Source of the DNA: Psychromarinibacter sediminicola
GTDB taxonomy: Bacteria; Pseudomonadota; Alphaproteobacteria; Rhodobacterales; Rhodobacteraceae
DNA length: 48,075 nucleotides
Reading direction: 5' to 3'
Assembly: GCF_029168335.1 (NCBI RefSeq)
Contig: NZ_JARGYC010000036.1
Coordinates: 1-48,075 of the forward strand
Below, one piece after another: positions 6,221 to 21,436 of the stretch. The translations under genes and the position numbers were made by a program. Each line of letters starts with the position of its first letter. Position 1 is the stretch's first letter. The notes below the pieces were generated by a model, which saw only the letters and a list, made by a program, of their open reading frames with translations, was not told the DNA's origin and did no database searches.

Positions 6221-9109
6221 ATGACCGAAGGCGGGGGCTTTCTTCCGATAATCGCGATGCTGCCGTTTCTGGGCGCGTTGCTGCCGGGGCTGATGATACG
6301 CGCGGGGCGCAATGTCTGCGCCGTGACGACCGCGATGCCGACGATCCTGGCGCTGGTGATGCTGGCGATCCTGGCGCCCTCGGTGTTCTCGGGCGAGGTG
6401 ATCGAGGCCGAGATCGCCTGGCTGCCGGCGCTGGGGCTGAAGGCGTCGTTCTTCCTCGACGGGCTGGGGCTGCTGTTCGCGGGGATGATCCTGGGCGTCG
6501 GGCTGCTGATCACGCTCTATGCGCGGTTCTACCTGGCGGGCGAAGACCCGATGGGGGTGTTCTACACCTATCTGCTGCTGTTCCAGGGCGCGATGCTGGG
6601 CATCGTGATCTCGGACAACATATTGCTTTTGCTTATCTTCTGGGAGCTGACGAGCCTGTCGTCCTTCCTGCTGATCGGCTACTGGAAGCACCTGCCCGAG
6701 GGTCGGCAGGGCGCCCGCATGGCGCTCGCGGTCACCGGCGGCGGCGGGCTGGCGATGATCGGCGGGATGCTGATCCTGGGCAATATCGCGGGCAGCTACG
6801 AGCTGACCGAGATCCTCGCCGAGACCGAGGCGATCCAGGCGAGCGACTGGTATCTGCCGGCGCTGATCCTGATCCTCTTGGGCACCTTCACCAAGTCGGC
6901 GCAGTTCCCGTTCCATTTCTGGCTGCCGCACGCGATGGCCGCCCCGACGCCGGTCTCGGCCTATCTGCACAGCGCGACCATGGTGAAGGCGGGCGTGTTC
7001 CTGATGGCGCGGCTGTGGCCGGTGCTGGCGGGCACCGATGCGTGGTTCTACATCGTGGCGACCACGGGCCTTGTCACCATGGTGATCGGTGCGCTGATCG
7101 CGCTGTTCAAGGACGACCTGAAGGCGCTTCTGGCGTTCTCGACCGTGTCGCATCTGGGGCTTCTGACGATGCTTCTGGGCTTCGGCACGCCGGTTGCGGC
7201 AGGCGTGGCGGTGTTCCACATCATCAACCACCTGACCTTCAAGGCGTCGCTGTTCATGTGCGCCGGCATCGTCGACCACGAGGCACATACCCGCGACATC
7301 AAGCGGCTGGGCGGGCTGGCGAGCCTGATGCCGGTGACCTTCGCGATCTCGACGGTCGCGGCGCTGTCCATGGCGGGCATCCCGCTGTTCAACGGCTTTC
7401 TGTCGAAGGAGCTGATGCTGGAGGAGGCGGCGCATACGACCTGGGCCGGCAACCCGCAGATCGTCGGTATTGTGGCGACCATCGGGGCGCTGCTGTCGGT
7501 GGCCTATTCGTTCCGCTTCGTGGCGCATGTCTTCCTGGGGCCGGTGCGCGACGACTATCCGCACAAGCCGCACGACCCGCCCTTCGGGATGTACGCGGCG
7601 CCGGCGCTGTTGGCGGTGCTGGTGGTGCTGATCGGCGTGTTCCCGGCGGCGACGGTGGAGCCGCTGGTGAACCTGACGGCCGGGGCGGTGACGGGCCAGG
7701 AGATGCACATGCATCTGAAGCTCTGGCACGGCGTGACGCCGGCGCTGTTCATGTCGGTCATCGCGGTGGTGGGCGGCGCGATCCTGCTGGGGCTGCACCG
7801 GCCGCTGGACCGGCTGTGGATCGCCATGCCGCGGCCCGAGGCGAAGGTGATCTTCGACTGGATCGTGCGGCAGGCGGCGACTGTGTCGGGCCGGATCGCC
7901 GAGGGCACGCATAACGGGGCGATCAGCCGGTATCTGGCGATCTTCACCGCGGCGACGGTGGTGCTGGGCTATCTCGCCTGGGCCGGCGGCGGCATGGCGC
8001 CCGCGACGCGCGAGATGCTGCCGATCCCGCCGGTAGTGGGCGTCGGCTGGGTGATGCTGCTGGGCGCCACGCTGGCCGTGGTGGTGATGCACCGCAACCG
8101 GTTCCGGGCGCTGGTGCTGATCGGGATCATCGGGCTGATGATCTCGGCCGGCTTCGTCTATATGTCGGCGCCGGACCTGGCGCTGACGCAGATCTCGGTG
8201 GAGACGGTCACCATCATCCTGCTGCTTCTGGCGCTGCACTTCATGCCGAAGGAGACCCCGCGGGAAAGCGGCCCGGCGCTGCGCCTGCGCGACGCGGTCA
8301 TCGCGCTGGGCGCCGGCGGCGGGGTGGCGATGCTGACCTATGCGTTCCTGAGGCGCGACTTCTCGACGATCTCGGATTTCCACCTGGAGAATTCCTATAG
8401 CGGCGGGGGCGGCACCAACGTGGTCAACGTGATCCTGGTGGACTTCCGGGGCTACGACACGTTCGGCGAGATCATCGTGCTGGGGATCGCGGGGCTGACG
8501 ATCTATGCGCTGATGGAGGCGCTGCTGGCCGGGCCGGCCTCGCGGCGGCTGCGCAACTGGGATTTCAGCCGCGACCGCTCGCGCGACCGGCACCCGCTGA
8601 TGATGGTGGTGGCGACGCGGGTGATGATGCCGATCGCCGCGGTCGTGGGCCTCTACATCTTCCTGCGCGGGCACAACCAGCCGGGGGGCGGCTTCGTGGC
8701 CGGGCTGGTGATCTCCATCGCGCTTCTGATGCAGTACATGGCGTCGGGCTTTGCCTGGACGCAGGGCCGCCAGCGGATCGAGTATCACTCGATGATCGGC
8801 TCGGGCGTCGTCATCGCCGGGCTGACCGGGGTGGGCGCGTGGTTCGCCGGGCAGCCGTTCCTGACCAGCGCCTTCGGCTACGTGCATCTGCCGCCCATCG
8901 AGGAGTTCGAGCTGGCCACCGCGGCGTTGTTCGACCTGGGCGTGTTCCTGGCGGTGCTGGGGGCGGTGATGCTGACGCTCTACAGCCTGTCGCGGATCGC
9001 ACGCTATGCCGGCGAGACGGTGAATATCGGGCCGATGGACTACGACCCGTCGCAGCCGCCCGAGGAAATGGCCCGCGAAGAGGCCGAGAGACGAGAAGAG
9101 GAGGGCTGA
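6221..9109 (+). CDS. mrpA: Mrp Na+/H+ antiporter subunit A fused to subunit B
   Basis: A 962-aa polytopic membrane protein. The first two thirds are the MrpA core related to the NuoL/NuoM antiporter-like subunits of complex I; the TKSAQFPFHFWLPHAMAAPTPVSAYLHSATMVKAG block is the diagnostic helix with the conserved Lys and Pro residues. From about residue 785 (MMVVATRVMMPIAA onward, with HNQPGGGFVAGL) the protein continues as an MrpB domain, so no separate mrpB gene is needed. This A-B fusion is the group 2 arrangement seen in Rhizobium Pha and other alphaproteobacteria. The ATG follows AAGGA at seven bases. It is the first gene of mrpAB-C-D-E-F-G, which exchanges cytoplasmic Na+ (or K+) for protons, giving salt and alkali tolerance. 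Confidence 0.96.
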   Translation: MTEGGGFLPIIAMLPFLGALLPGLMIRAGRNVCAVTTAMPTILALVMLAILAPSVFSGEVIEAEIAWLPALGLKASFFLDGLGLLFAGMILGVGLLITLYARFYLAGEDPMGVFYTYLLLFQGAMLGIVISDNILLLLIFWELTSLSSFLLIGYWKHLPEGRQGARMALAVTGGGGLAMIGGMLILGNIAGSYELTEILAETEAIQASDWYLPALILILLGTFTKSAQFPFHFWLPHAMAAPTPVSAYLHSATMVKAGVFLMARLWPVLAGTDAWFYIVATTGLVTMVIGALIALFKDDLKALLAFSTVSHLGLLTMLLGFGTPVAAGVAVFHIINHLTFKASLFMCAGIVDHEAHTRDIKRLGGLASLMPVTFAISTVAALSMAGIPLFNGFLSKELMLEEAAHTTWAGNPQIVGIVATIGALLSVAYSFRFVAHVFLGPVRDDYPHKPHDPPFGMYAAPALLAVLVVLIGVFPAATVEPLVNLTAGAVTGQEMHMHLKLWHGVTPALFMSVIAVVGGAILLGLHRPLDRLWIAMPRPEAKVIFDWIVRQAATVSGRIAEGTHNGAISRYLAIFTAATVVLGYLAWAGGGMAPATREMLPIPPVVGVGWVMLLGATLAVVVMHRNRFRALVLIGIIGLMISAGFVYMSAPDLALTQISVETVTIILLLLALHFMPKETPRESGPALRLRDAVIALGAGGGVAMLTYAFLRRDFSTISDFHLENSYSGGGGTNVVNVILVDFRGYDTFGEIIVLGIAGLTIYALMEALLAGPASRRLRNWDFSRDRSRDRHPLMMVVATRVMMPIAAVVGLYIFLRGHNQPGGGFVAGLVISIALLMQYMASGFAWTQGRQRIEYHSMIGSGVVIAGLTGVGAWFAGQPFLTSAFGYVHLPPIEEFELATAALFDLGVFLAVLGAVMLTLYSLSRIARYAGETVNIGPMDYDPSQPPEEMAREEAERREEEG

Positions 9110-9110
9110 G

Positions 9111-9479
9111 GTGGAGATCGTGGTTGCGAGCGCGGTGGGCGTGCTGACCGCCGGGGGCGTCTATCTGATGCTGCGGCTCAGGGCGTTCCCGGTGATCCTG
9201 GGGATGGCGTTTCTGTCCTACGCGGTGAACATCTTCCTGTTCTCGACCGGCCGCATCGCCATCGACGCGCCGCCGATCCTGAACAACTACGCCGACGTGC
9301 CCTATACCGACCCGCTGCCGCAGGCGCTGGTGCTGACGGCCATCGTGATCTCGTTCGGGATGACCGCCGTCTTGGTGATGATCGCGCTGGGCGCCTTCCT
9401 GGAGGCGGCGCATGACCGGATCGACATGACGGGCGAGCCCGACGAGGAAGACGCGGCCGGAACGGAGCGCGAGGGATGA
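9111..9479 (+). CDS. mrpC: Mrp antiporter subunit C
   Basis: A 122-aa NuoK-like subunit with three predicted membrane helices. Family landmarks are VGVLTAGGVYLMLRLRAFPVILG near the N-terminus and DPLPQALVLTAIVISFGMTA in the last helix, which carries the conserved DPLPQALVLTAIVI signature of MrpC. The start is a GTG one base after the mrpA stop, with GAAGAGGAGG upstream. The acidic tail extends past the membrane part and overlaps the mrpD start by four bases, so translation is probably coupled. Confidence 0.95.
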   Translation: MEIVVASAVGVLTAGGVYLMLRLRAFPVILGMAFLSYAVNIFLFSTGRIAIDAPPILNNYADVPYTDPLPQALVLTAIVISFGMTAVLVMIALGAFLEAAHDRIDMTGEPDEEDAAGTEREG

Positions 9480-11176
9480 GCCACTGGATCATCGCCCCCG
9501 TCGTGCTGCCGGCGCTGCTGGCGCCGCTGATCGCCTTCGTGATGCGCCACGACATGCTGCTGGCGCGGACGGCGTCGATCGCGGGGACCGTGGCGCTGCT
9601 GGTCATTTCCATCGGGCTGACCGGCGCGGCGCTGGACGGGACGGTGCATGTCTACCGGCTGGGCGACTGGCCTGCGCCGTTCGGGATCGTGCTGGTGCTG
9701 GACCGGCTGTCGGCGATGATGGTGCTGGTGACGGCGATCCTGGCGCTGATCGCGCTGGTCCATGCGGTGGCGAGCGGCTGGGACGCGCGGGGCTGGCATT
9801 TCCACGCGCTGTTCCAGTTCCAGCTGATGGGCATCTGCGGCGCCTTCCTGACCGGCGACGTCTTCAACCTGTTCGTCTTCTTCGAGGTGCTGCTGATCGC
9901 CAGCTACGGGCTGATGATCCATTCCGGCGGCAAGGTGCGGCTGCGCGCGGGGCTGCAATACGTGGTGATGAACCTTGCCGGCTCGACGCTGTTCCTGTTC
10001 GCGGTGGGCACGCTCTATGCCGTCACCGGCACGCTGAACATCGCGGACCTGGCGGTGAAGGTGCAGGAGATCCCGGCGGAGGACGCGGCGCTGCTGCGGG
10101 TGGCGGCGATGCTGCTGATGATCGTCTTCGCGATCAAGGCGGCGCTGTTCCCGGTGCAGTTCTGGCTGCCCAACACCTATGCCAATGCGCCGGCGCCCGT
10201 CGCCGCGCTGTTCGCGATCATGACCAAGGTCGGGGCCTACGCGATCCTGCGGGTGCATACGGTCGTCTTCGGGCCGCATGTCGAGTCGCTGGAGGGACTG
10301 CCGGGCGACTGGCTGTTCCCGGCGGCGGTGGTGACGGTGGCGGTGGGCGCCGTCGGCGTGCTGGGGGCGAGGCGGCTGATGCCGATGCTGTCCTTTGCCG
10401 TCGTCGGCTCGATGGGGACGCTGATGCTGGCAATCTCGGCCTTCACGCCGGACTCGGCGCTGGCGGCGCTCTACTACATGCTGCATTCGACCTTCGCGGC
10501 GGCGGCGCTGTTTCTGTTCGCCGACCTGCTGCTGTCGCGGCGGGCCTCGGGCGATCTGCTGCACGCGGCGCCGCAGACGATCCAGAACGGGCTGTTCGCC
10601 GCGATCTTCTTCGCCGCGGCCATCGGCATGGCGGGGATGCCGCCCTTGAGCGGGTTCCTGGGCAAGCTTCTGGTGCTGGACGCGCTGCGCGACCCGGCCG
10701 AGATCGGCTGGGCCTGGGCGGCGGTGCTGGCGGGGTCGCTGATGACCATCGTGGGCTTCGCGCGGGCGGGCAGCGCGCTGTTCTGGAAGTCGACGGCGAT
10801 CCCCGACCTGGACATCGCGCCGGGCGGCGCGGCGGCGCCGCTGGCGCCGGAGGTCACGCCGGCCGGGCCGCTGAACGTGGCGCCGGTGATGGTGGCGATC
10901 GCGCTGCTGGCTTTGCTGTCGGTCGCGGCGGGGCCGGTGTCGTCCTATCTTGAGGCGACGGCGGGGCAGCTGCACGATTCCAGCGACTATGTCGACGCGG
11001 TGCTGCACGCGCCCGAGAACGAGACGTCGAAGATGGAGACCATGGGCCACGGCGACGATCAAGATGACGGGCACGGCGACGAGACCGACGAGGCTGGTGA
11101 CGACGAGCATGGCGACGCCGAGGGCGCGGCGGCCGAGGAAGAGGCGCACGACGGCGCGGCAGGGGAGGGGCACTGA
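9476..11176 (+). CDS. mrpD: Mrp antiporter subunit D, with an unusual His/Asp/Glu-rich C-terminal tail
   Basis: A 566-aa NuoN/NuoM-like subunit and, with MrpA, one of the two ion-translocating modules. The VFNLFVFFEVLLIASYGL helix carries the conserved Glu, and AIKAALFPVQFWLPNTYANAPAPVAALFAIMTKVGAYA is the conserved Lys/Pro helix pair. The last ~50 residues are a hydrophilic run dominated by Asp, Glu, His and Gly, absent from typical MrpD proteins, which end near the last helix. The tail could bind metal or buffer protons, but no role is known to me. The ATG overlaps the mrpC stop (ATGA). Confidence 0.95.
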   Translation: MSHWIIAPVVLPALLAPLIAFVMRHDMLLARTASIAGTVALLVISIGLTGAALDGTVHVYRLGDWPAPFGIVLVLDRLSAMMVLVTAILALIALVHAVASGWDARGWHFHALFQFQLMGICGAFLTGDVFNLFVFFEVLLIASYGLMIHSGGKVRLRAGLQYVVMNLAGSTLFLFAVGTLYAVTGTLNIADLAVKVQEIPAEDAALLRVAAMLLMIVFAIKAALFPVQFWLPNTYANAPAPVAALFAIMTKVGAYAILRVHTVVFGPHVESLEGLPGDWLFPAAVVTVAVGAVGVLGARRLMPMLSFAVVGSMGTLMLAISAFTPDSALAALYYMLHSTFAAAALFLFADLLLSRRASGDLLHAAPQTIQNGLFAAIFFAAAIGMAGMPPLSGFLGKLLVLDALRDPAEIGWAWAAVLAGSLMTIVGFARAGSALFWKSTAIPDLDIAPGGAAAPLAPEVTPAGPLNVAPVMVAIALLALLSVAAGPVSSYLEATAGQLHDSSDYVDAVLHAPENETSKMETMGHGDDQDDGHGDETDEAGDDEHGDAEGAAAEEEAHDGAAGEGH

Positions 11177-11179
11177 GCC

Positions 11180-11674
11180 ATGGCGTTGAAACGCATCTTT
11201 CCGCATCCCCTGCTGACGCTGGTGCTGACCTTCGTCTGGCTGGCGCTGGTCAGCACGGTGACGCTGGGCAACCTGATCCTGGGATTCGCCGTCGGCATCG
11301 TGGTGCCGCTTCTGACCGCGCCCTACTGGCCGGACCGGGCGAAGATCCACTACCCGTTCCGGGTGATCGAATACGCGCTGATCGTGCTTTGGGACATCGT
11401 GGTGGCGAATGTCGAGGTGGCGCTGATCATCCTGTTCAAGCGCAACGCGAACATCCGGTCGCATTTCATCTGCGTGCCGCTGGAACTGACCTCGCCCGAG
11501 GCGATCACGGTGCTGGCGGGCACGATCACGATGACGCCGGGCACCGTGTCGGCGACGCTGGCGGCGGACGGCCAGGCGATCCTGGTGCATTGCCTGCATA
11601 CCGACGATCCCGACGGGGTGCGCGCCCAGATCAAGAACCGCTACGAGCGCCGGCTGAAGGAGATATTCCAGTGA
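11180..11674 (+). CDS. mrpE: Mrp antiporter subunit E
   Basis: A 164-aa subunit with two or three N-terminal helices and a soluble C-terminal half. The conserved MrpE block is in VPLELTSPEAITVLAGTITMTPGTVSATL, followed by LVHCLHTDDP. It follows mrpD after three bases and its stop overlaps the GTG start of mrpF. It belongs to the structural half of the Mrp complex (subunits E, F, G) needed for antiport but absent from complex I. Confidence 0.95.
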   Translation: MALKRIFPHPLLTLVLTFVWLALVSTVTLGNLILGFAVGIVVPLLTAPYWPDRAKIHYPFRVIEYALIVLWDIVVANVEVALIILFKRNANIRSHFICVPLELTSPEAITVLAGTITMTPGTVSATLAADGQAILVHCLHTDDPDGVRAQIKNRYERRLKEIFQ

Positions 11675-13275: not shown

Positions 13276-13668
13276 TCAGCCGTATTGCAGGAAGGCGGCC
13301 AGGAGGTCGGTGCGGGTGAGCATGCCGACGAGCCGACCGCCGTCGGTGACGGGGTAGACGCGGAACGGTTTCTCGATGAACGCCTCGGCGGCAGTGACGA
13401 GGTCGGTCTCGATGTCCAGCGTCTCGACGTCCGGCGTGGCGTGGTCGGCCACGGTGCCCTGCCATTGCCGGTAGTAGCTGGCGCCGAGGGCGGAGCGGAA
13501 GCAGTCCTTCTGGGTCAGGATGCCCGCGAGCCCGCCGGAGTGGTTCACGACGGCCGCCGCGCCGCTCTGGGTGCGGACGAGCTGGGCCACGGCGGCGCGG
13601 ATCGGTTCGTCGGGGCGCAGGCGCAGGAAGTCGCGCTGCATGACCGAGGCGATGCGGCTTTCATCCAT
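13276..13668 (-). CDS. CBS-domain pair protein at the end of the nqr operon
   Basis: A 130-aa protein made of two CBS repeats: residues about 5-60 (VMQRDFLRLRPDEPIRAAVAQL and GGLAGILTQKDCFR) and about 70-130 (TLDIETDLVTAAEAFIEKPFRVYPV and GGRLVGMLTRTDLLAAF). CBS pairs bind adenosyl nucleotides and often sense energy state. I chose the ATG at 13668 because AAAGGA stands about 10 bases upstream; an ATG 12 codons earlier would lie deep in nqrM. The start overlaps the nqrM stop by eight bases, so it is almost certainly translated from the nqr transcript. A regulatory role for Nqr is inference. Confidence 0.85.
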   Translation of the reverse strand: MDESRIASVMQRDFLRLRPDEPIRAAVAQLVRTQSGAAAVVNHSGGLAGILTQKDCFRSALGASYYRQWQGTVADHATPDVETLDIETDLVTAAEAFIEKPFRVYPVTDGGRLVGMLTRTDLLAAFLQYG

Positions 13669-13831
13669 GCGCGGCGTCCTTTTCACGGTTCGGGCAGCCG
13701 GCACAGCGCTCGCCGCCGGCGCAGGCGGTGCCCTCGCAGGCGGTCTGCGGCGGCTTGCCCCGGAGCGCGAGGCCGAGGGCGAGGCCGCCGGCGGCCAGGG
13801 CGGTGATGACGATGGCGAGGAGGAGTTCCAT
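13661..13831 (-). CDS. nqrM: Na+-NQR maturation protein NqrM
   Basis: A 56-aa single-pass membrane protein that begins MELLLAIVITALAAGGLALG, one hydrophobic helix, followed by a basic turn and the Cys cluster CEGTACAGGERCAGC. NqrM proteins share this plan (one helix, then about four Cys) and are needed to insert the Fe-S centre between NqrD and NqrE. It starts two bases after the apbE stop and its end overlaps the CBS gene, exactly where nqrM lies in known nqr operons. The identification rests on position plus the helix and Cys pattern. Confidence 0.88.
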   Translation of the reverse strand: MELLLAIVITALAAGGLALGLALRGKPPQTACEGTACAGGERCAGCPNREKDAAHG

Positions 13832-13833
13832 GC

Positions 13834-14796
13834 TCAGAGCTCCGCCGCGTCGAAGCCGCCGGTGCGGGTGGCGGTCAGACCGTCGGGCGTGGCCGACAGG
13901 AACAGCGCGGCGATGCCGTGGCGAGTGGCGAGTGCGGGGCCGCGGGTCTCGCCGGCGGCCATCAGGGCGGTGGCCCAGCCGTCGGCCTCCATCGCCGTGG
14001 GGGCGAGGACCGAGACCGAGGCGAGGGCGCCGGTGATCGGTTCGCGCGCGGCGGGGTCGATGATGTGGCTGTAGAGCCGGTCGCCCGCGCTGTAGCTGTT
14101 CGCGCGGGTGCCGGAGGTGGCGATGGCGGTGCCGTCGAGCGTGACGGCGCCGGCCAGCGCGGCGATGCCGGGGCGCGGATCCTCGATGCCGGCATGCCAG
14201 GGGCGGCCGGTCGGGTGGCGGCCCCGGGCGGTCAGCTCGCCGCCGAGGTCGATCAGGAAGTCGTCGTGGCCCGCGGCCCGCAGCGTCTCGGCCATGCGGT
14301 CGAGCGCGCGGCCCTTGGCGATGCCGCAGAGGTCCAGGGTCAGCCCGTCCTCGGCCTTCTCCAGCATGCCGTCCCCGGCGCCGAGGCCGCGCCAGCCGCC
14401 GGGCGTGCCCTCGATGGGCCCGAAGCCCCAGCGGGCGACCAGCGGGCCGACCGACGGGTCGAAGGCGCCGTGCGTGGTGCCGGCCAGCGCCAGGGCGGCG
14501 GCGGCGACGCGGGCCGTCTCGGGCGTCGCCTCGACCGGGCCGGCGGGGGCGCGGTTGAAGGCGGTGATCAGGCTGTCGGGGCGCCAGGGGCTTTGCTCGG
14601 CGTCGATCTCCGCCAGCAGCGCCTTGAGCGGCGCGCGCAGGCGGGCGGCGCCCGCGCCCGCGGGCAGGACGACGCGCCAGCCGGTGCCGAAGGCGGCGCC
14701 GTCCAGCGTCTCGACGGGGGACGCGCCAAGCGCGAGGCGGGGCGCGGCGAGCGTCGCGGCAGTGGCGGTCAGCAGGCGGCGGCGGGTCAGGCGCAT
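13834..14796 (-). CDS. apbE: FAD:protein FMN transferase (Tat or lipoprotein-type export signal)
   Basis: A 320-aa ApbE protein, the Mg-dependent enzyme that attaches FMN to Thr of NqrC/NqrB from FAD in the periplasm. The N-terminus MRLTRRRLLTATAATLAAP is a twin-arginine-like signal. Conserved blocks are the MSHHH-equivalent region, DPSVGPLVARWGFG, LDLCGIAKGRALDRM and DFLIDLGGELTARG, then ATSGTRANSYSAGDRLYSHIIDP. It lies between nqrF and nqrM. Its presence means at least one covalent FMN is expected, and NqrC keeps the acceptor site. Confidence 0.93.
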   Translation of the reverse strand: MRLTRRRLLTATAATLAAPRLALGASPVETLDGAAFGTGWRVVLPAGAGAARLRAPLKALLAEIDAEQSPWRPDSLITAFNRAPAGPVEATPETARVAAAALALAGTTHGAFDPSVGPLVARWGFGPIEGTPGGWRGLGAGDGMLEKAEDGLTLDLCGIAKGRALDRMAETLRAAGHDDFLIDLGGELTARGRHPTGRPWHAGIEDPRPGIAALAGAVTLDGTAIATSGTRANSYSAGDRLYSHIIDPAAREPITGALASVSVLAPTAMEADGWATALMAAGETRGPALATRHGIAALFLSATPDGLTATRTGGFDAAEL

Positions 14797-14799
14797 GGC

Positions 14800-16023
14800 T
14801 CAGGCTCCGAAATCGTCGTTATGGATCATGTGCCGCTCCACCCCCAGCTTGCGCAGGGTGGTCAGGACGGCGGCGATCATCACCGGCGGACCACAGAGAT
14901 AGTACTCGCAATCCTCCGGCGCAGGGTGCTGCGACAATGTCTTGCGCACGATCTCGTGGATGAAGCCGGTGGCGCCGGTCCAGCGGTCGCCCGGCGCCGG
15001 GTCGGACAGGGCGGGGGTCCAGGTGAAGTTGTCGTGCGCGGCGGCGATGCCGTCCAGCTCGTCGACGTAGAACAGATCGCCCGCCGAGCGGGCGCCGTAG
15101 AAGAAGGACATCTTGCGGTGCGTCCCGAGGCCGATCTGCTCGTGGATCATGGCGCGCAGCGGGGCCATGCCGACGCCGCCGCCGATGAACACCATTTCGC
15201 GGTCGGTGTCCTGCACGCCGAACTCGCCGAAGGGCCCGGAGATGTCGAGGTCGTCGCCGGGCTGGCAGGCGAACAGGTAGGACGAGACGATGCCGGGCGG
15301 GATGTCCTGTTCGTGCCCCGGCGGGGGCGCGGCGAGGCGGATGTTGAACACCGCCCGCCCGGCGTCCTCGGGCCGGTTGGCGATGGAGTAGGCGCGGGTG
15401 ACCTTGGCGTCGGAGCGGGCCTTGAGGCCGAACCAGCCGTTGACCTGCCAGGTCTCGCGGAATGGCTCGGGCACCTCGATGGTGGCGAAGTCGAGCGTGT
15501 AGGCCGGCGCCGAGAGCTGCATGAACATGCCGGCGCGGTAGTTCATGTCGAAGCCTTCGGGCAAGTCGAGGACCAGTTCGCGGATCAGGGGCGCCAGCAT
15601 GGTGTTTGAGATCACGCGGGCCGAGACGGTTTCGGCCGAGAGGATGTCGGCGGGCACCTCGACCGTGGCGGGGCCGCGCAGGGTGGTCTGGCAGGCGAGA
15701 CGGACGCCGGCCTTGCGCTCGGCGGCGGACAGGATGCCCTTCTCGGTCGCCTGCGCCTCGCCCGCGCCGGGGCCGCCGGCGGTGACGCGGCAGAGACCGC
15801 AGGTGCCCGAGCCGCCGCAGCCCGCGGGGATCGGGATGCCGGCGCCGTGCAGGACCGACAGCAGCGTGTCGCCGCGTTTCGCGGGGATCGTCTGGCTTTC
15901 GTTCACCGTGACCTCGATGGCGCCCTGCGGCACCAGCGACCGGCGCGCGCCCAGAAGCCCGAAGGTCAGCAGCAGCACGAGGGCGACGATGACGCCCGAG
16001 CCTATGAGGATTTCCGCAATCAC
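14800..16023 (-). CDS. nqrF: Na+-NQR subunit F (NADH dehydrogenase, FAD and 2Fe-2S)
   Basis: A 407-aa electron-input subunit. One N-terminal helix (MIAEILIGSGVIVALVLLL) is followed by a ferredoxin domain with the 2Fe-2S ligands in GCGGSGTCGLCRV and LACQTTL, the FAD motif RAYSIANRPED, the NADH motif IGGGVGMAPLRAMIHEQ and the C-terminal YYLCGPPVMIAAVLTTLRKLGV with NDDFG. I placed the start at GTG 16023, overlapping the nqrE stop as GTGA, because it gives the usual 407-residue length; the open frame upstream only shadows nqrE. All cofactor residues look intact. Confidence 0.95.
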   Translation of the reverse strand: MIAEILIGSGVIVALVLLLTFGLLGARRSLVPQGAIEVTVNESQTIPAKRGDTLLSVLHGAGIPIPAGCGGSGTCGLCRVTAGGPGAGEAQATEKGILSAAERKAGVRLACQTTLRGPATVEVPADILSAETVSARVISNTMLAPLIRELVLDLPEGFDMNYRAGMFMQLSAPAYTLDFATIEVPEPFRETWQVNGWFGLKARSDAKVTRAYSIANRPEDAGRAVFNIRLAAPPPGHEQDIPPGIVSSYLFACQPGDDLDISGPFGEFGVQDTDREMVFIGGGVGMAPLRAMIHEQIGLGTHRKMSFFYGARSAGDLFYVDELDGIAAAHDNFTWTPALSDPAPGDRWTGATGFIHEIVRKTLSQHPAPEDCEYYLCGPPVMIAAVLTTLRKLGVERHMIHNDDFGA

Positions 16024-16631
16024 GGGCCCACCATCTGTGCGAAGGAGGAAAAGCCGAGTGACATCATCCCCGCCACGACGAAGGCGATGCCGAGGCCGCG
16101 CAGGCCCGCCGGCAGGTCGGCATAGGCCATGCGGGTGCGGATCGCCGACAGGAGGATCACGGCGAGCGCGAAGCCCGCGCCGCTGCCGAGGCCGTAGGCG
16201 ACGGAGTCGGTGAAGCTGTAGCTGCGTTCCACCATGAACAGGCTGCCCGCGAGGATGGCGCATTGCACCGTCAGGAGCGGCAGGAAGACCCCGAAGGCGC
16301 CGTGGATGGCGGGGAAGAAACGCTCCAGCACCATCTCGATCAGCTGCACCGTGGCGGCGATGACGCCGATGAAGGCCAGAAGCGACAGGTAGGACAGGTC
16401 GAGCTCGGGCCGGCCGGCCCAGTCCCAGGCGCCGGGGGCGAGGACGGCGGTATAGATCAGCTGGTTCAGCGGCACCGTCACGCCGAGCACGAAGGTGACG
16501 GCGATGCCGAGGCCCACCGCCGTCTCCAGCCGCCGCGACAGCGCCAGGAAGGTACACAGCCCGAGGAACAGGGTGAGCGGCATGTTCTCGACGAACATCG
16601 CTTCGAGGAAGAGGGCGCCGAAGCCGGTCAT
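16020..16631 (-). CDS. nqrE: Na+-NQR subunit E
   Basis: A 203-aa, six-helix membrane subunit. It keeps both conserved Cys regions that, with NqrD, hold the intramembrane 2Fe-2S centre: LFLGLCTFLALSRRLETA in the first helix and LLTVQCAILAGSLFMVER in the middle. The C-terminal AYADLPAGLRGLGIAFVVAGMMSLGF is the usual NqrE end. Its ATG overlaps the nqrD stop by four bases and its stop overlaps the nqrF GTG. Confidence 0.95.
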   Translation of the reverse strand: MTGFGALFLEAMFVENMPLTLFLGLCTFLALSRRLETAVGLGIAVTFVLGVTVPLNQLIYTAVLAPGAWDWAGRPELDLSYLSLLAFIGVIAATVQLIEMVLERFFPAIHGAFGVFLPLLTVQCAILAGSLFMVERSYSFTDSVAYGLGSGAGFALAVILLSAIRTRMAYADLPAGLRGLGIAFVVAGMMSLGFSSFAQMVGP

Positions 16632-17281
16632 TCCGCGGGCTCCGTGACGCGGGGCGCCTCGTGCTCGGTCGGCTCGGTCTGTTCGGTGCGGATCGAGCGG
16701 ATCGCCCAGACGAGAAGGCCCAGCAGGAAGAAGGCCGAGGGCGCGAGCTGCATCAGCGACAGCGGCTGGAACCAGCCGCCCTGATCGGTGGTGCGCAGGA
16801 TCTGGTAGCCGAGGAGCGCGCCGGTGCCGAGGAACTCGCGCAGCGAGCCGATGATGACGAGGATCAGCGAATAGCCCAGCCCGTTGCCGAGCGCGTCGAC
16901 CATGGACGGCAGCGGCGGGTTGGAGCGGGCGAAGCTCTCGGTCCGGCCGAGGACCAGGCAGTTGGTGGTTATCAGCGCGACGAAGACCGACAGCCGCTGC
17001 GAGATGTCGAAGAAATAGGCCTGCAGCACCTGGTCGATGACGATCACCAGCGAGGCGACGATGATGATCTGCACGATCAGGCGGATGGTGCCGGGGATGT
17101 GGCGGCGTATCAGGCTGACCGCGAAGGCCGAGAGCACCAGCACCACGGTCAGCGCCACCGACATGGTCAGCGCCGTGTCGAGCTTGGTCGTCACCGCCAG
17201 CGCCGAGCAGAGCCCGAGGATCTGCAGCGTGATCGGGTTCTGCCGGATCAGCGGCGTCGTCAGGGTGGTCCAGAGCGCCAT
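16628..17281 (-). CDS. nqrD: Na+-NQR subunit D
   Basis: A 217-aa, six-helix subunit that is the inverted-topology partner of NqrE. Cys is present in QILGLCSALAVTTKLDTA and in ALITTNCLVLGRTESFA, the expected ligands for the shared Fe-S centre; GNGLGYSLILVIIGSLREFLGTG is a family block. A charged, Glu-rich tail follows the last helix. The gene starts three bases after the nqrC stop. Confidence 0.95.
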   Translation of the reverse strand: MALWTTLTTPLIRQNPITLQILGLCSALAVTTKLDTALTMSVALTVVLVLSAFAVSLIRRHIPGTIRLIVQIIIVASLVIVIDQVLQAYFFDISQRLSVFVALITTNCLVLGRTESFARSNPPLPSMVDALGNGLGYSLILVIIGSLREFLGTGALLGYQILRTTDQGGWFQPLSLMQLAPSAFFLLGLLVWAIRSIRTEQTEPTEHEAPRVTEPAE

Positions 17282-17284
17282 GGA

Positions 17285-18088
17285 TCAGAACTCCCCGTCG
17301 CGCATCGCCTCGATGACGGGGCCGTAGCCGTCGGGGCCGAGCCAGAAGCGGACGATCCGGGTCATGGCGGTGGAGGTGCGGGTGGCGCCGGTGATGCCGT
17401 CGACCTCGTAGGGCGAGGTGGCGACGCCCTTGGCGACGGCGAAGCGCAGGTTGCCGAGGTCGTCGATGAACTGCTTGCCGGCGAAGCTGGCCTGCCAGGC
17501 GGGTTCCTCGATCCGGGCGCCGAGGCCCGGCGTTTCCTGCTGCTGGGTCACGGTCATGCCGGCGATGGTGCGCATGTCGCCGTGCAGCGCCAGCATCGCC
17601 TGGATCGTGCCGTTATAGCCCTGCCCGGCGATCGGCAGGATCACGAGCTGCAGCGCCCCGTCCGCGTCGCGCAGGATGTAGATCTGGGCGTAGTCGGGGC
17701 GGGCGCCGAGGCCGGCGATATCCTCGGCCGGGCTGAGCTCGGTCCAGTTGGCGGCGTCGGCGAGCGCGGTGTCGAGCGAGGCGGGGTCGACGCCTTCGGC
17801 CGCGGCGCCCTCTTCGAGGTCGACCACGACGGTCGAGATGGCGCCGTCCTCGGACTGGGCGAGCAGGTCAGTCATGCCGGGGATCGCGGCGATCAGCGAT
17901 TCCAGGCGCAGCTGCTCTTCGGCGGCGCGGTTGGCGGCCTGGATCGGGCGCAGGATGGCGGTGGCGCCGGTGACCGCCACGGCGCAGGCGGTGGCGACGG
18001 CGAAGGCCACGGCGATGGTCTTGCCCCGGCTGTCGTTCGGCAGCGCGAGGAAGCGTTTCCAGGCGGCGAAGGGTCCGGTGTCAGCCAA
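17285..18088 (-). CDS. nqrC: Na+-NQR subunit C (covalent FMN)
   Basis: A 267-aa periplasmic flavoprotein anchored by one N-terminal helix (TIAVAFAVATACAVAVTGATAIL). The FMN acceptor motif is intact as DGITGATRTSTAM near the C-terminus, and GYNGTIQAMLALHGDMRTI plus ETPGLGARIEEPAW are family blocks. The start is a TTG at 18088 with AGGAGA upstream, overlapping the nqrB end by eight bases. The apbE gene downstream supplies the FMN transferase. Since NqrB here lacks its own FMN site, this is the only covalent FMN I can see in the complex. Confidence 0.94.
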   Translation of the reverse strand: MADTGPFAAWKRFLALPNDSRGKTIAVAFAVATACAVAVTGATAILRPIQAANRAAEEQLRLESLIAAIPGMTDLLAQSEDGAISTVVVDLEEGAAAEGVDPASLDTALADAANWTELSPAEDIAGLGARPDYAQIYILRDADGALQLVILPIAGQGYNGTIQAMLALHGDMRTIAGMTVTQQQETPGLGARIEEPAWQASFAGKQFIDDLGNLRFAVAKGVATSPYEVDGITGATRTSTAMTRIVRFWLGPDGYGPVIEAMRDGEF

Positions 18089-18857
18089 GGCGTCTTCTCC
18101 TGAGGGTGAGCCAGAGGGCGATGGCGATCTCGTCCAAGAGCGGCGCGGCGAGCGAGGTCAGAAGCGCCGCCGAGACCGCCAGCTGAACCGGGTGCGCGCC
18201 GGTCCAGTAGGCCGCGAACATCAGCGCCAGCGCGGCGTAGAGCGCGCCGTTCAGCCAGCGGCCGAGCGCGGTGGTCGCGCTGGTGACCGGGTCGGCGACC
18301 AGAAGGACCAGCACGACGCCGTAGATCGCCAGCTTGTCGGGAAACGGGATGCCCGCGAGCGCGGCGAGGGCCATGACGGCCAGCGCGCCCAGCAGCAGGC
18401 GGGCGGAGATCACCCCGAAGGCGGCGCCGATCAGCGCGGCGGGGATCACCGCCCAGCCCACCGGGATCGCGAGGCCGGGCCAGCCCGAGGCGGGGAAGCT
18501 GAAGCCCAGGAAGGCCAGCGCGACGGTGGCGGGGTTCAGGATGTTCCGGCCCCAGCCGCCGAAGGCAAGCTCCGCCATCACCACGCCGAAGGAGGTGCCG
18601 AGGACCAGCGCGAAGATCCCCAGATCCTCGGGCGCCAGCATCGCCAGCGCCAGCGCCGTGAGCGCGCCGGCGAAGGAGGGCGGCTGCGCGCGCGCCAGCA
18701 TCCACAGGACGTGCCAGAGGCCGGCGACCAGCAGGAAGAAGCCCAGCCGCGCCAGCGCCCAGGGCCCCTCGATCACCAGCCAGGTGACGGCGACGGGCAG
18801 GATCGCCGCGAGCAGCATCAGCGCGACGGTTTCGCGGTCCCACAGGCCCCGGATCAT
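18081..18857 (-). CDS. nqrB: short NqrB/RnfD-family membrane subunit lacking the SGAT FMN motif
   Basis: A 258-aa membrane protein, against about 350 aa for RnfD and 400-415 aa for NqrB. Two family blocks are clear: AFGGWGRNILNPATVALAFLGF (residues ~97-118; NqrB GGxGRNxxNPA) and LLVADPVTSATTALGRWLNG (~186-205; NqrB DPVSA/DPVTS). Between them, where NqrB and RnfD carry the SGAT motif with the FMN-binding Thr, the sequence runs straight from FPASGWPGLAIPVG into a helix; no SGAT is present anywhere. The ATG overlaps the nqrA stop and the frame is unbroken, so this is not a visible frameshift. Shortening seems to be an internal loss of the flavin loop plus some helices and the N-terminal extension. 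Confidence 0.85.
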   Translation of the reverse strand: MIRGLWDRETVALMLLAAILPVAVTWLVIEGPWALARLGFFLLVAGLWHVLWMLARAQPPSFAGALTALALAMLAPEDLGIFALVLGTSFGVVMAELAFGGWGRNILNPATVALAFLGFSFPASGWPGLAIPVGWAVIPAALIGAAFGVISARLLLGALAVMALAALAGIPFPDKLAIYGVVLVLLVADPVTSATTALGRWLNGALYAALALMFAAYWTGAHPVQLAVSAALLTSLAAPLLDEIAIALWLTLRRRRLG

Positions 18858-20125
18858 ATGGCTTCCTCCGCTGCGATCCGCGCCAGCATGGCATCGAGCA
18901 GCCGCGAGAGCGAGGGGTCGGCGCCGCTGACGTAATCGGCGAGGGTGAGATCCTCGGACAGAAGCGACAGGGCGCCGAGTTTCACCGCCGTTTCGCTGTC
19001 GCCGGCGGACAGCGCGCGCAGGAGGCTCATCGCGGGCAGGGCGCCGCCGGTGGCCTGTTCCAGCGCGGCGCTGGGGATCAGCGGCAGCGGGCGCGAGGCG
19101 CGTTTCAGGGCCGAGAGGAACCAGTGCGGCCGGGGGCCGTGGCGGTCGGGGTCGATGACCGTGACCTGCCGGTCCCGGCCGGTGAGCCATTGCGATTCCC
19201 GCCCCTCCAGCGCGGAGCCGGAGAGGATGGCGTGCGGGCCGGGTTTCACGTCGTGCCAGGTCAGGCCGCGCAGGTCGGCGCCGGGCTGGCAGCGGACCAG
19301 CCGCGCGCTGCGCATCGCCGGGCCGGAGACCGAGACGAGCCGGGTGTCGTTGACAAGGCCGGTGGCGAGCAGGTCGCCGATGGCGGCCACGTCCTCGGCG
19401 TGAAGCTCCCAGACCGGCCGGCCGATCTCGGCCGGGAAGTGGCGGTGGATCTGGAAGCCGGCGAGGCCCCAGGGATGGGCGCCGGCCACCTTGACGACTT
19501 TCAGCCGCTGCGACACGCGGGCCGGGCCGACGAGATCCTCGCCCGGCGGCTGGCACAGGTGGATCGGACCGCCCGTCAGGAGCGTGAGCGCCCGCAGCCC
19601 GCGTTCCAGCGCGCCGAACTCGTGGTCGAGCGCGCGGCGCGGGTCGGGCGCGAGCGGGCGGGTGTCGACGGCCATGACGAAGATCGCGGCGGGCTCTTCG
19701 TCGGGGTCGGGGAAGCGGCCGAAGGGGCGCGAGCGTATCTGCGTCCAGAGGCCGGAGCCGAGGAGCAGGGCGCGCAGGGCGTCCGAGTCGCCCGCAGCGT
19801 CGCCCACCTCGTGCGTGTGGCGGCCGGCGCTGTCCTCGTGGAAGAACCGCATCCGGGTCAGCCGGTGGCCGGGGCCGAGGTCGATGCCGGCGACGCGGGC
19901 GGGCATCGGGGCTGTCACGACGACGCGCGGGTCGCGGCGCGAGCGCAGGACCGGCGCCCCCTGGGCGACGAAATCGTCCTTCGCGACGAGCGGCTCGACG
20001 CGGAAATCCTCCTCGGGCGTGGCGGTCAGCGCGGCCTCTTCGGTAATGGCGCGCTCCACGGTCCCGGGCGCGGGAGGCGTGTCAGCGAGGCTGACCTCCA
20101 GACCGCTTCGAAAGAGCCAGGGCAT
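18854..20125 (-). CDS. nqrA: Na+-NQR subunit A
   Basis: A 423-aa soluble cytoplasmic subunit, close to the usual 445 aa. Family features include the N-terminal biotinyl/HPr-like segment with PLVAKDDFVAQGAPVLRSR and VVTAPMPARVAGID, the HPWGLAGFQIHRHFP block (HxxGLxGxHIH in NqrA) and VSVSGPAMRSARLVRCQPGADL. It heads the operon; ATG at 20125 follows GAGGGGAG. The chromosome side upstream is shared with the divergent multiheme cytochrome gene across 114 bases. It is NqrA rather than RnfC because no ferredoxin Cys clusters are present. Confidence 0.92.
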   Translation of the reverse strand: MPWLFRSGLEVSLADTPPAPGTVERAITEEAALTATPEEDFRVEPLVAKDDFVAQGAPVLRSRRDPRVVVTAPMPARVAGIDLGPGHRLTRMRFFHEDSAGRHTHEVGDAAGDSDALRALLLGSGLWTQIRSRPFGRFPDPDEEPAAIFVMAVDTRPLAPDPRRALDHEFGALERGLRALTLLTGGPIHLCQPPGEDLVGPARVSQRLKVVKVAGAHPWGLAGFQIHRHFPAEIGRPVWELHAEDVAAIGDLLATGLVNDTRLVSVSGPAMRSARLVRCQPGADLRGLTWHDVKPGPHAILSGSALEGRESQWLTGRDRQVTVIDPDRHGPRPHWFLSALKRASRPLPLIPSAALEQATGGALPAMSLLRALSAGDSETAVKLGALSLLSEDLTLADYVSGADPSLSRLLDAMLARIAAEEAI

Positions 20126-20170
20126 GCCTGCTCCCCTCTCAGAAAATCGCCTTTGCGGCCACCGATCACA

Positions 20171-20199
20171 TTGTCGGGAGAGGCTCGCTCTGCTAGCGT
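20171..20199 (+). promoter_or_regulatory. candidate sigma70-type promoter of the pentaheme cytochrome gene
   Basis: TTGTCG and TAGCGT are separated by exactly 17 bases in the nqrA-cytochrome divergent gap, 41 bases before the cytochrome ATG. The -10 match is weak, so this is a tentative call. Confidence 0.25.
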
Positions 20200-20239
20200 C
20201 AGATTATCGTTATTCCCAGAGGCATCAAGGTCTAACGCC

Positions 20240-21436
20240 ATGATTCTTTCGAAGAAAACCTTCGGCCGGATATCATCTTTTCCTGCCGTACTCGCCGTCG
20301 CCGCCCTGTCGGCGGGGGCTTTTTCCGCAAATGCACAAACCGCGGACACGGATGCCGCGGAAAGCGGCACGGACGCGGAAAACGTCACCACTTTCGTGCT
20401 GCCGGACAGCGGCCCGTTCTCTCCCGAGACCATCGAGATCAAGAACGCCGTCGCCATCGGCAACTGGGCGCGGTCGGGCCATTCCGACCGGGCGTCCGAA
20501 TCGTTCTCACATTGGGACGAGGACGGCGAGGTGCCGGCGGTCTGTGCCACCTGCCATGCGGGCGCCGGGTTCCGGTCGTTCCACGGGCTGGACGGCAGCG
20601 AGCCCGGCGTGCGGGAAGAGCCCTTCCCGATCGGCGGGGTCGTGGATTGCGAGACCTGCCACCATCCGGGCCTGTCGCAGGTGGCCGAGATCACCCTGCC
20701 TTCGGGGGTCGAGCACCCGGTGCAGGGCGGCGAGGCCGCGTGCTTCACCTGCCACCAGGGCCGCGCCGCGGGCGCGACGGTGTCCGAAGCGGTGGGCGAC
20801 ATGCCCGAGGACGAGCCGAACCCCGAGTTCCGCTTCGTGAACCCGCATTACAACCAGGCCGCGGCGACCTGGCTGGGCGGCTACGGCGAGTCCGGCTATC
20901 ACTATCCGGGCAAGAGCTATTCGGGCCGGTTCCTGCATGCGCAGCCGGTGGCCAGCTGTGCCTCGTGCCACGAGCCGCACAGCCTGGAGGTCGCGGAGGA
21001 GGCCTGCGAGGTCTGCCATTTCGACGCGGCGCCGAAGGACATCCGCATCAGCCGGGTCAGCTATGACGGCAGCGGCGACACCACCAAGGGCATCCGCGCC
21101 GACATCGACGCCAATGCGGCCAAACTGCTGGACGAGATCGAGACCTATGCGGCCGAGGTCGCGGGCACGCCGATCCTGTACGAGGCGCATTATCCGTACT
21201 TCTTCGCCGACGCGAACGGCGACGGGGTCGCGGACGAGGCGGACGGGCGGTCGGTGTCCTACAATGCCTGGACGCCGCGGCTTTTGAAGGCGGCGTTCAA
21301 CTGGAAGTTCGTGACGGCCGATCCGGGCGTGCATGCGCATAACCCGCATTACGCGCTGGAGCTCCTGTACGACTCGATCGAGGACCTGGCGAGCACCACG
21401 GGGACCGACTTCGAGGCGATGGGCCTGTTGCGCTGA
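20240..21436 (+). CDS. periplasmic pentaheme c-type cytochrome
   Basis: A 398-aa exported protein with a signal peptide (AVLAVAALSAGAFSANA, cleavage near residue 32) and five CxxCH heme sites: CATCH 102-106, CETCH 137-141, CFTCH 168-172, CASCH 240-244 and CEVCH 256-260. The C-terminal 130 residues have no heme motif and contain a calcium-loop-like DANGDGVADEADG. It resembles multiheme electron-transfer cytochromes (cytochrome c554/NrfB-like arrangement of hemes) but I cannot assign a named family. It is divergent from nqrA with a 114-base shared promoter region and ends before a strong terminator. A role as electron partner of the Nqr complex is inference. Confidence 0.85.
   Translation: MILSKKTFGRISSFPAVLAVAALSAGAFSANAQTADTDAAESGTDAENVTTFVLPDSGPFSPETIEIKNAVAIGNWARSGHSDRASESFSHWDEDGEVPAVCATCHAGAGFRSFHGLDGSEPGVREEPFPIGGVVDCETCHHPGLSQVAEITLPSGVEHPVQGGEAACFTCHQGRAAGATVSEAVGDMPEDEPNPEFRFVNPHYNQAAATWLGGYGESGYHYPGKSYSGRFLHAQPVASCASCHEPHSLEVAEEACEVCHFDAAPKDIRISRVSYDGSGDTTKGIRADIDANAAKLLDEIETYAAEVAGTPILYEAHYPYFFADANGDGVADEADGRSVSYNAWTPRLLKAAFNWKFVTADPGVHAHNPHYALELLYDSIEDLASTTGTDFEAMGLLR

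Follow-up and report, generated by a model that had tools for sequence, protein, structure and literature searches.

The window analysed here, a stretch of 48,075 nucleotides, harbors on its minus strand, from 20125 to 13276, the genes nqrA-B-C-D-E-F, apbE, an nqrM-like ORF, and a CBS-domain gene, in this order (Table 1). NqrA to NqrF, the six subunits of a Na+-NQR, are encoded in one operon together with ApbE and NqrM, the latter assigned by eye; the gene at the corresponding position in Nitratireductor is annotated as nqrM. Relatives of the CBS-domain ORF occur in 16 of the 20 loci compared. The genome also contains the gene for the 49-kDa subunit of complex I, so the operon probably does not encode its sole NADH dehydrogenase. 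Two features go beyond what an earlier note on this DNA had recorded: a pentahaem cytochrome gene divergent from nqrA and a deletion in NqrA.

Table 1. Features of the nqr locus in the window.
Feature	Positions	Strand	Remarks
CBS-domain gene	13276..13668	-	Last in operon
NqrM-like small protein	13661..13831	-	56 aa; Cys motif; assigned by eye
ApbE flavin transferase	13834..14796	-	One of two in the genome
NqrF	14800..16023	-	NADH/FAD/[2Fe-2S] input subunit; exceeds TIGRFAM cut-off
NqrE	16020..16631	-	Two intramembrane [2Fe-2S] cysteines kept
NqrD	16628..17281	-	Two intramembrane [2Fe-2S] cysteines kept
NqrC	17285..18088	-	FMN-binding domain; TGAT flavinylation motif at 17381-17392
Short NqrB	18081..18857	-	258 aa; matches Pfam NQR2_RnfD_RnfE, E 3.5e-19
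NqrA variant	18854..20125	-	423 aa; 22 residues absent after residue 342
Divergent region	20126..20239	.	114 bp, common to nqrA and the cytochrome gene
Pentahaem c-type cytochrome, Cyt5	20240..21436	+	398 aa; probably periplasmic

Against the TIGRFAM models, NqrF (421 bits, cut-off 295), NqrD (278, cut-off 245), and NqrE (263, cut-off 248) exceeded the cut-offs, and NqrA (212, cut-off 321), NqrB (62, cut-off 350), and NqrC (141, cut-off 144) did not reach them. The parts that the earlier note had described as intact, namely the TGAT motif of NqrC, the cysteine pairs of NqrD and NqrE, NqrF, ApbE, and the NqrM-like ORF, are all present. All four cysteines of the NqrD/E [2Fe-2S] cluster were kept in 48/48 NqrD and 47/47 NqrE aligned rows, counted with short fragments and L180 excluded and with the NqrE row of L214 set aside, as it proved to be the NqrD fragment of that locus. 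The canonical NqrCs of L049, L050, L051, and L213 carry AGAT at the flavin site, where the others have SGAT or TGAT.

The short NqrB keeps the GRNxxNPA and DPVTSA blocks and lacks SGAT, which bears out the earlier note on this point. In the phmmer search against the PDB, residues 41-124 aligned to V. cholerae NqrB over the GRNxxNPA block, and residues 90-253, with the DPVTSA block, did so weakly. Relative to three canonical NqrBs, the alignment shows the loss of about 45 N-terminal residues, about 40 residues after the first helix, a 44-residue stretch holding SGAT, and about 10 more, and the stretch between the two blocks is, as had been claimed, too short for the flavin loop. What remains is the full transmembrane fold of NqrB without the FMN loop, the N-terminal part of the quinone site, and the first periplasmic hairpin. 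The protein contains the PF03116 domain alone, and NqrF is a separate protein.

Among 195 genomes, its own included, ten others encode full-length short NqrBs with 57-71% identity to that of the window, and seven encode more distant forms (33-36% identity). Scanning named genomes yielded 119 confirmed relatives; the 80 of them that are listed, on which all counts over named loci rest, are 53-71% identical in the best segment and comprise 78 Alphaproteobacteria (66 Rhodobacterales, ten Hyphomicrobiales, and two unplaced) and two labelled as Gammaproteobacteria. Residues were counted over the 87 distinct sequences of 99 inner-clade rows, the window's included, 12 outer-clade sequences, and 19 canonical NqrBs. 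The SGAT columns were empty in 87/87 inner and 12/12 outer short NqrBs, and SGAT or TGAT occupied them in 19/19 canonical sequences.

Three findings had been named in the earlier note as arguing against its reading, and none of them was obtained. A conserved flavin-linked Thr elsewhere in NqrB was rejected: GA[ST] occurs in 13 of the 80 named NqrBs, at scattered places, and [ST]GA[ST] occurs once among them, at residue 30 of L198, near the N-terminus and away from the flavin position. No second full-length nqrB was found in the window's own genome (completeness 99.99), where the search gave a single PF03116 gene. A sequence error or local deletion is excluded by the near-constant length of the protein, 254-273 aa in all 80 named loci. 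Additionally, some genomes (G004, G103, and G204) carry a canonical operon alongside a short one, which indicates that the short NqrB is a separate line rather than a local variant. In a tree of 48 rows built from NqrC, NqrD, NqrE, and NqrF, with NqrB unused, 30 short operons split from 18 long ones with an SH-aLRT support of 100. The tree left out L180, with broken frames, and L043 and L214, which are cut; both this tree and the cytochrome tree described below are single-run quick trees.

The description of the operon as otherwise complete needs one correction, in that NqrA, too, has lost residues. The stretch missing from the window's NqrA, residues 347-368 of a 447-aa canonical NqrA, measures 0 residues in 18/18 inner rows, 0-4 in the 12 outer rows, and 22-24 in 19/19 canonical ones. 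In V. cholerae, the C-terminal NqrA stretch R330-N379, within which the lost residues fall, intertwines with NqrB F34-L53, the V. cholerae NqrA numbering being transferred here by length rather than by alignment. The part of NqrB that corresponds to F34-L53 is also absent.

The ubiquinone site of Na+-NQR, comprising the N-terminal part of NqrB, G140, and F159, was not found in the short NqrBs. Taking the roles of the ubiquinone-contact and nearby positions from PMC10643135 and PMC4014512, we found Gly at position 140 in 2/87 inner, 0/12 outer, and 19/19 canonical sequences, Phe at 159 in 1/87, 0/12, and 19/19, respectively, and Asn at 156 in 0/99 short and 18/19 canonical NqrBs. G141 was kept in 61/87 inner sequences, the window's among them. 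The riboflavin ligands followed another pattern in the inner clade, to which the window belongs: N200 was kept in 85/87, N203 in 76/87, and D346, as Asp or Glu, in 86/87. Since a pure scaffold would not need these ligands, electrons may still reach riboflavin in the inner clade. In the outer clade they are mostly lost (N200 in 2/12 and N203 in 4/12). The D346 position holds Glu in 19/19 canonical NqrBs.

These residues bear on a reading in which the complex is still a quinone reductase, the NqrC FMN docking deeper in NqrB, at the former FMN loop, and passing electrons to riboflavin and then to a remodelled quinone site. We regard it as unlikely. It is in keeping with the riboflavin-site residues of the inner clade and the whole NqrB fold that was kept, and a covalent flavin sampling a non-covalent site has been proposed for two-subunit Nqr/Rnf-like complexes (PMC11334425). 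However, the quinone-site residues, the NqrB N-terminus, and the NqrA segment are lost, the riboflavin ligands have mostly disappeared from the outer clade, and the linked cytochrome is left unexplained.

The cytochrome gene was divergent from nqrA in the 10/10 inner-clade loci read first and in 77 of the 80 named loci. The three exceptions are L146 and L148, which end at contig ends, and L198, without an nqrA hit, in which a likely transposase ORF, recognized by eye, lies upstream of nqrB (L198:6104-7912). A survey of 394 genomes from the same family found the cytochrome in 47 of 51 with a short NqrB versus 19 of 343 others (Fisher p 1.6e-40, with kinship ignored), and in two of the 56 long-NqrB-only genomes, where it lies beside other genes. 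Presence was defined by profile hits below 1e-40, with weak hits in G016, G096, and G209 counted as absent; genomes were sorted by hand, on bits and spans, into 51 short and 56 long-only ones, with the partial matches in G017, G237, and G323 included; and the NqrB and cytochrome scans were taken to cover the same 394 genomes, as group and number were the same. In G424, the cytochrome and the short nqrB are on separate contigs. In Nitratireductor, Shinella, and Paracoccus seriniphilus, the cassette is located on plasmids of 0.6-0.86 Mb, and their annotation tables revealed no shared surroundings beyond it.

In its main features, the cytochrome tree matches that of NqrC-D-E-F. L098 adjoins the inner clade in both, with a support of 86 in the cytochrome tree, in which the L082 cytochrome, not linked to NQR, branches just outside. 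That the operon is an NQR in decay, retained by chance or solely for assembly, is highly improbable: broken copies do exist, L045 being in pieces and L198 having neither an nqrA nor a cytochrome hit next to its likely transposase, but 119 relatives were confirmed, and the near-constant length, the invariant cofactor residues, and the largely agreeing trees speak against decay.

No pentahaem gene was found near three short-NqrB operons, L042 and L046, which form one basal branch, and L044, for which about 1.6 kb upstream was covered. Their genomes gave no cytochrome hit or, in G016, a weak one; L096, the tree neighbour of L044, has the cytochrome. Other acceptors must therefore exist, and the NqrB loss may predate the partnership. 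In L046, a gene for an ethylbenzene-dehydrogenase-type haem protein (L046:1367-2752) lies divergent from nqrA in place of the pentahaem gene, and together with the cytochrome-less operons it weakens the case for the cytochrome as the only acceptor. The deepest branches among the short operons are L226 and the pair L042 and L046 (branch supports 84 and 81), so the loss of the NqrB flavin may be older than the cytochrome partnership. L226 (G511) has an nqrBCDEF-apbE operon in which no nqrA was found, with NqrC-F and ApbE at approximately 7184-11373 and an NqrB that diverges further still; a four-CXXCH ORF lies about 2-3 kb away.

We read ten of the 19 genomes that have the cytochrome but no short NqrB. 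In seven of the ten, its divergent neighbour encodes a protein with Ferric_reduct, FAD_binding_8, and NAD_binding_1 domains; these proteins are orthologs sharing 60-68% identity with the L085 copy. The assignment comes from Pfam for five of the seven and for a second G051 copy, and from tblastn for L087 and L100. Such a partner is another route for NAD(P)H electrons across the membrane. The ferric-reductase-like NAD(P)H family delivers electrons outward. One electron-crossing system is thus swapped for another beside the same kind of cytochrome, and this swap is our strongest indication that the cytochrome receives its electrons from the short NQR. A clear partner was not found in two of the ten loci read, nor for the second G427 copy (L090). 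In L082 (5862-9548), the cytochrome adjoins a cytochrome b561-type protein and a nine-CXXCH protein (PF11783), a different possible electron feed. On a Defluviimonas plasmid, the annotation places the cytochrome 2-8 kb from genes for PepSY, cytochrome b, DUF2271, and ApbE.

Taken together, the gene content and residue patterns suggest that the complex is an output-rewired Na+-NQR, and we hold it to be likely that its NADH electrons end in the periplasm, via the pentahaem cytochrome, and not at quinone. NqrF would take electrons from NADH through FAD and [2Fe-2S], and the [2Fe-2S] cluster of NqrD/E would carry them across the membrane to the periplasmic face, where NqrC holds its covalent FMN. 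From there they would pass to the divergently encoded cytochrome and a further acceptor, while NqrB and the trimmed NqrA would be retained as a scaffold for the swinging NqrC. With the FMN loop and the quinone site of NqrB lost, electrons would not return through the membrane to ubiquinone. The losses, the retained input and crossing parts, the cytochrome's linkage and shared history, and its other NAD(P)H pairing were computed. The hand-over to the cytochrome is inferred from the linkage, shared history, and partner swapping, and its direction and the lack of quinone reduction are inferences as well; the carriers up to NqrC are assigned from conserved residues and the known pathway. Counting against the hand-over, divergent genes need not encode proteins that touch. 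The earlier note had proposed that electron flow is rerouted after the NqrC FMN, either directly to quinone or to an outside acceptor. Rerouting is well supported by sequence; the outside acceptor is favoured by the cytochrome frequencies given above, and the direct quinone option, which the kept riboflavin site would still allow, is disfavoured by the changed ubiquinone-contact positions and the missing NqrB and NqrA segments.

Electron flow through the short NQR is probably outward, away from the cell interior. Under the opposite direction, the periplasmic cytochrome would feed electrons from an outside donor via NqrC and NqrD/E to NAD+, driven by an ion gradient. The carriers should be reversible in principle, and Na+/H+ antiporter genes are nearby: Mrp genes lie in the window (6221-11176 and on), and Na_H_Exchanger family genes adjoin the cytochrome gene in L037, L045, and L094. 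These antiporter genes hint at a Na+ link for the short NQR. We nevertheless judge reverse flow improbable, as the cytochrome also pairs with the ferric-reductase-like protein, whose family delivers electrons outward, and reducing NAD+ with electrons from c-haem would probably be a steep uphill step.

Of the proposed Na+-path acids of NqrB, D52 was kept in 55/87 inner NqrBs, the window's included, and E157 was Glu in 0/99 short NqrBs; the E273-like column, where the alignment is approximate, holds Glu in 3/87 and Asp in 8/87. A changed Na+ function, also raised in the earlier note, is plausible given the loss of E157. Two coupling mechanisms are debated for Na+ movement in NQR and RNF, via NqrB or via the NqrD/E-type pair (PMC12174285). 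With the NqrB flavin, quinone-site residues, and some proposed Na+-path acids gone and the NqrD/E cysteines kept, the short NQR is a natural test of the coupling site; should it pump Na+, this would mean that ion transport is possible through NqrD/E instead of NqrB. As a tentative and rather unlikely extension, the complex could be a 'half NQR', an NADH:cytochrome oxidoreductase perhaps pumping Na+ at NqrD/E alone, whose NrfA-fold pentahaem partner would be a periplasmic reductase of a new, NADH-driven kind. Many Rhodobacterales and some Hyphomicrobiales likely possess a direct NADH-to-periplasm electron route, obscured in public annotation by labels like 'RnfABCDGE type electron transport complex subunit D' for the short NqrB and 'cytochrome c3 family protein' or 'cytochrome C' for its partner.

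Compared with the V. cholerae-type NqrABCDEF, the complex differs in an NqrB without the covalent-FMN loop, the quinone-site residues, and the N-terminal part, in the 22-residue NqrA deletion, and in the linked divergent pentahaem cytochrome. RnfD, the name that NCBI gives to such proteins, was rejected for the short NqrB (TIGR01946, 54.5 versus 207 bits, and no FMN motif), and an RNF complex was rejected because RnfB and RnfC are absent from the operon, which has NqrF and NqrA instead. Both a lost NqrB/RnfD flavin site and a multihaem cytochrome beside an archaeal RNF are already known. In two-subunit Nqr/Rnf-like complexes, primarily of Actinobacteria and the candidate phyla radiation, an NqrB/RnfD homologue without the flavinylation site, whose NqrB-type membrane domain is fused to an NAD-binding domain, is accompanied by an NqrC-like subunit (PMC8238504, PMC11334425). 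The short NqrB likewise lacks the flavinylation site; however, no such fusion was found in it, six NQR subunits remain, NqrD/E are usable, and the partner is a cytochrome. The RNF complex of Methanosarcina acetivorans has a multihaem cytochrome (PMC12174285) and, like the present locus, links an Rnf/Nqr-type membrane core to a multihaem c-cytochrome. There, the cytochrome accompanies six RNF subunits, whereas here the NQR return branch is cut and the input is NADH. A complete nqrA-F operon combining NqrB flavin-site loss with a linked NrfA-like cytochrome was not found described in the open-access papers searched, the sources consulted including PMC9325719.

Cyt5 has five CXXCH motifs and an N-terminus that by eye resembles a signal peptide, and its fold is predicted to be the NrfA-like pentahaem one. 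The HMMER match to NrfA was weak, and hhalign against the E. coli NrfA profile covered only 33 columns, elsewhere than R106 and H264. When the two proteins were anchored without gaps at haem 1 and haem 4, Ser/Ala and Tyr222 fell at these two positions; under this placing, R106 and H264 would not be kept. Cyt5 further differs from NrfA in its first haem motif, CXXCH instead of CXXCK, in an extra invariant His203, and in the NADH-driven complex encoded next to it. Its role may be that of a divergent NrfA-type reductase or of a wire.

An FNR-type site common to the divergent regions was rejected, as the best site in the window has four mismatches and the loci are related. Sites with at most two mismatches occurred in 29 of 78 stretches versus 7.4 in shuffles, and those with one mismatch in 10 versus 0.9. 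FNR/Crp-type sites resembling TTGAT-N4-ATCAA lie between nqrA and the cytochrome gene in some relatives, namely L171, L174, L183, L185, L187, and others, but not in the window.
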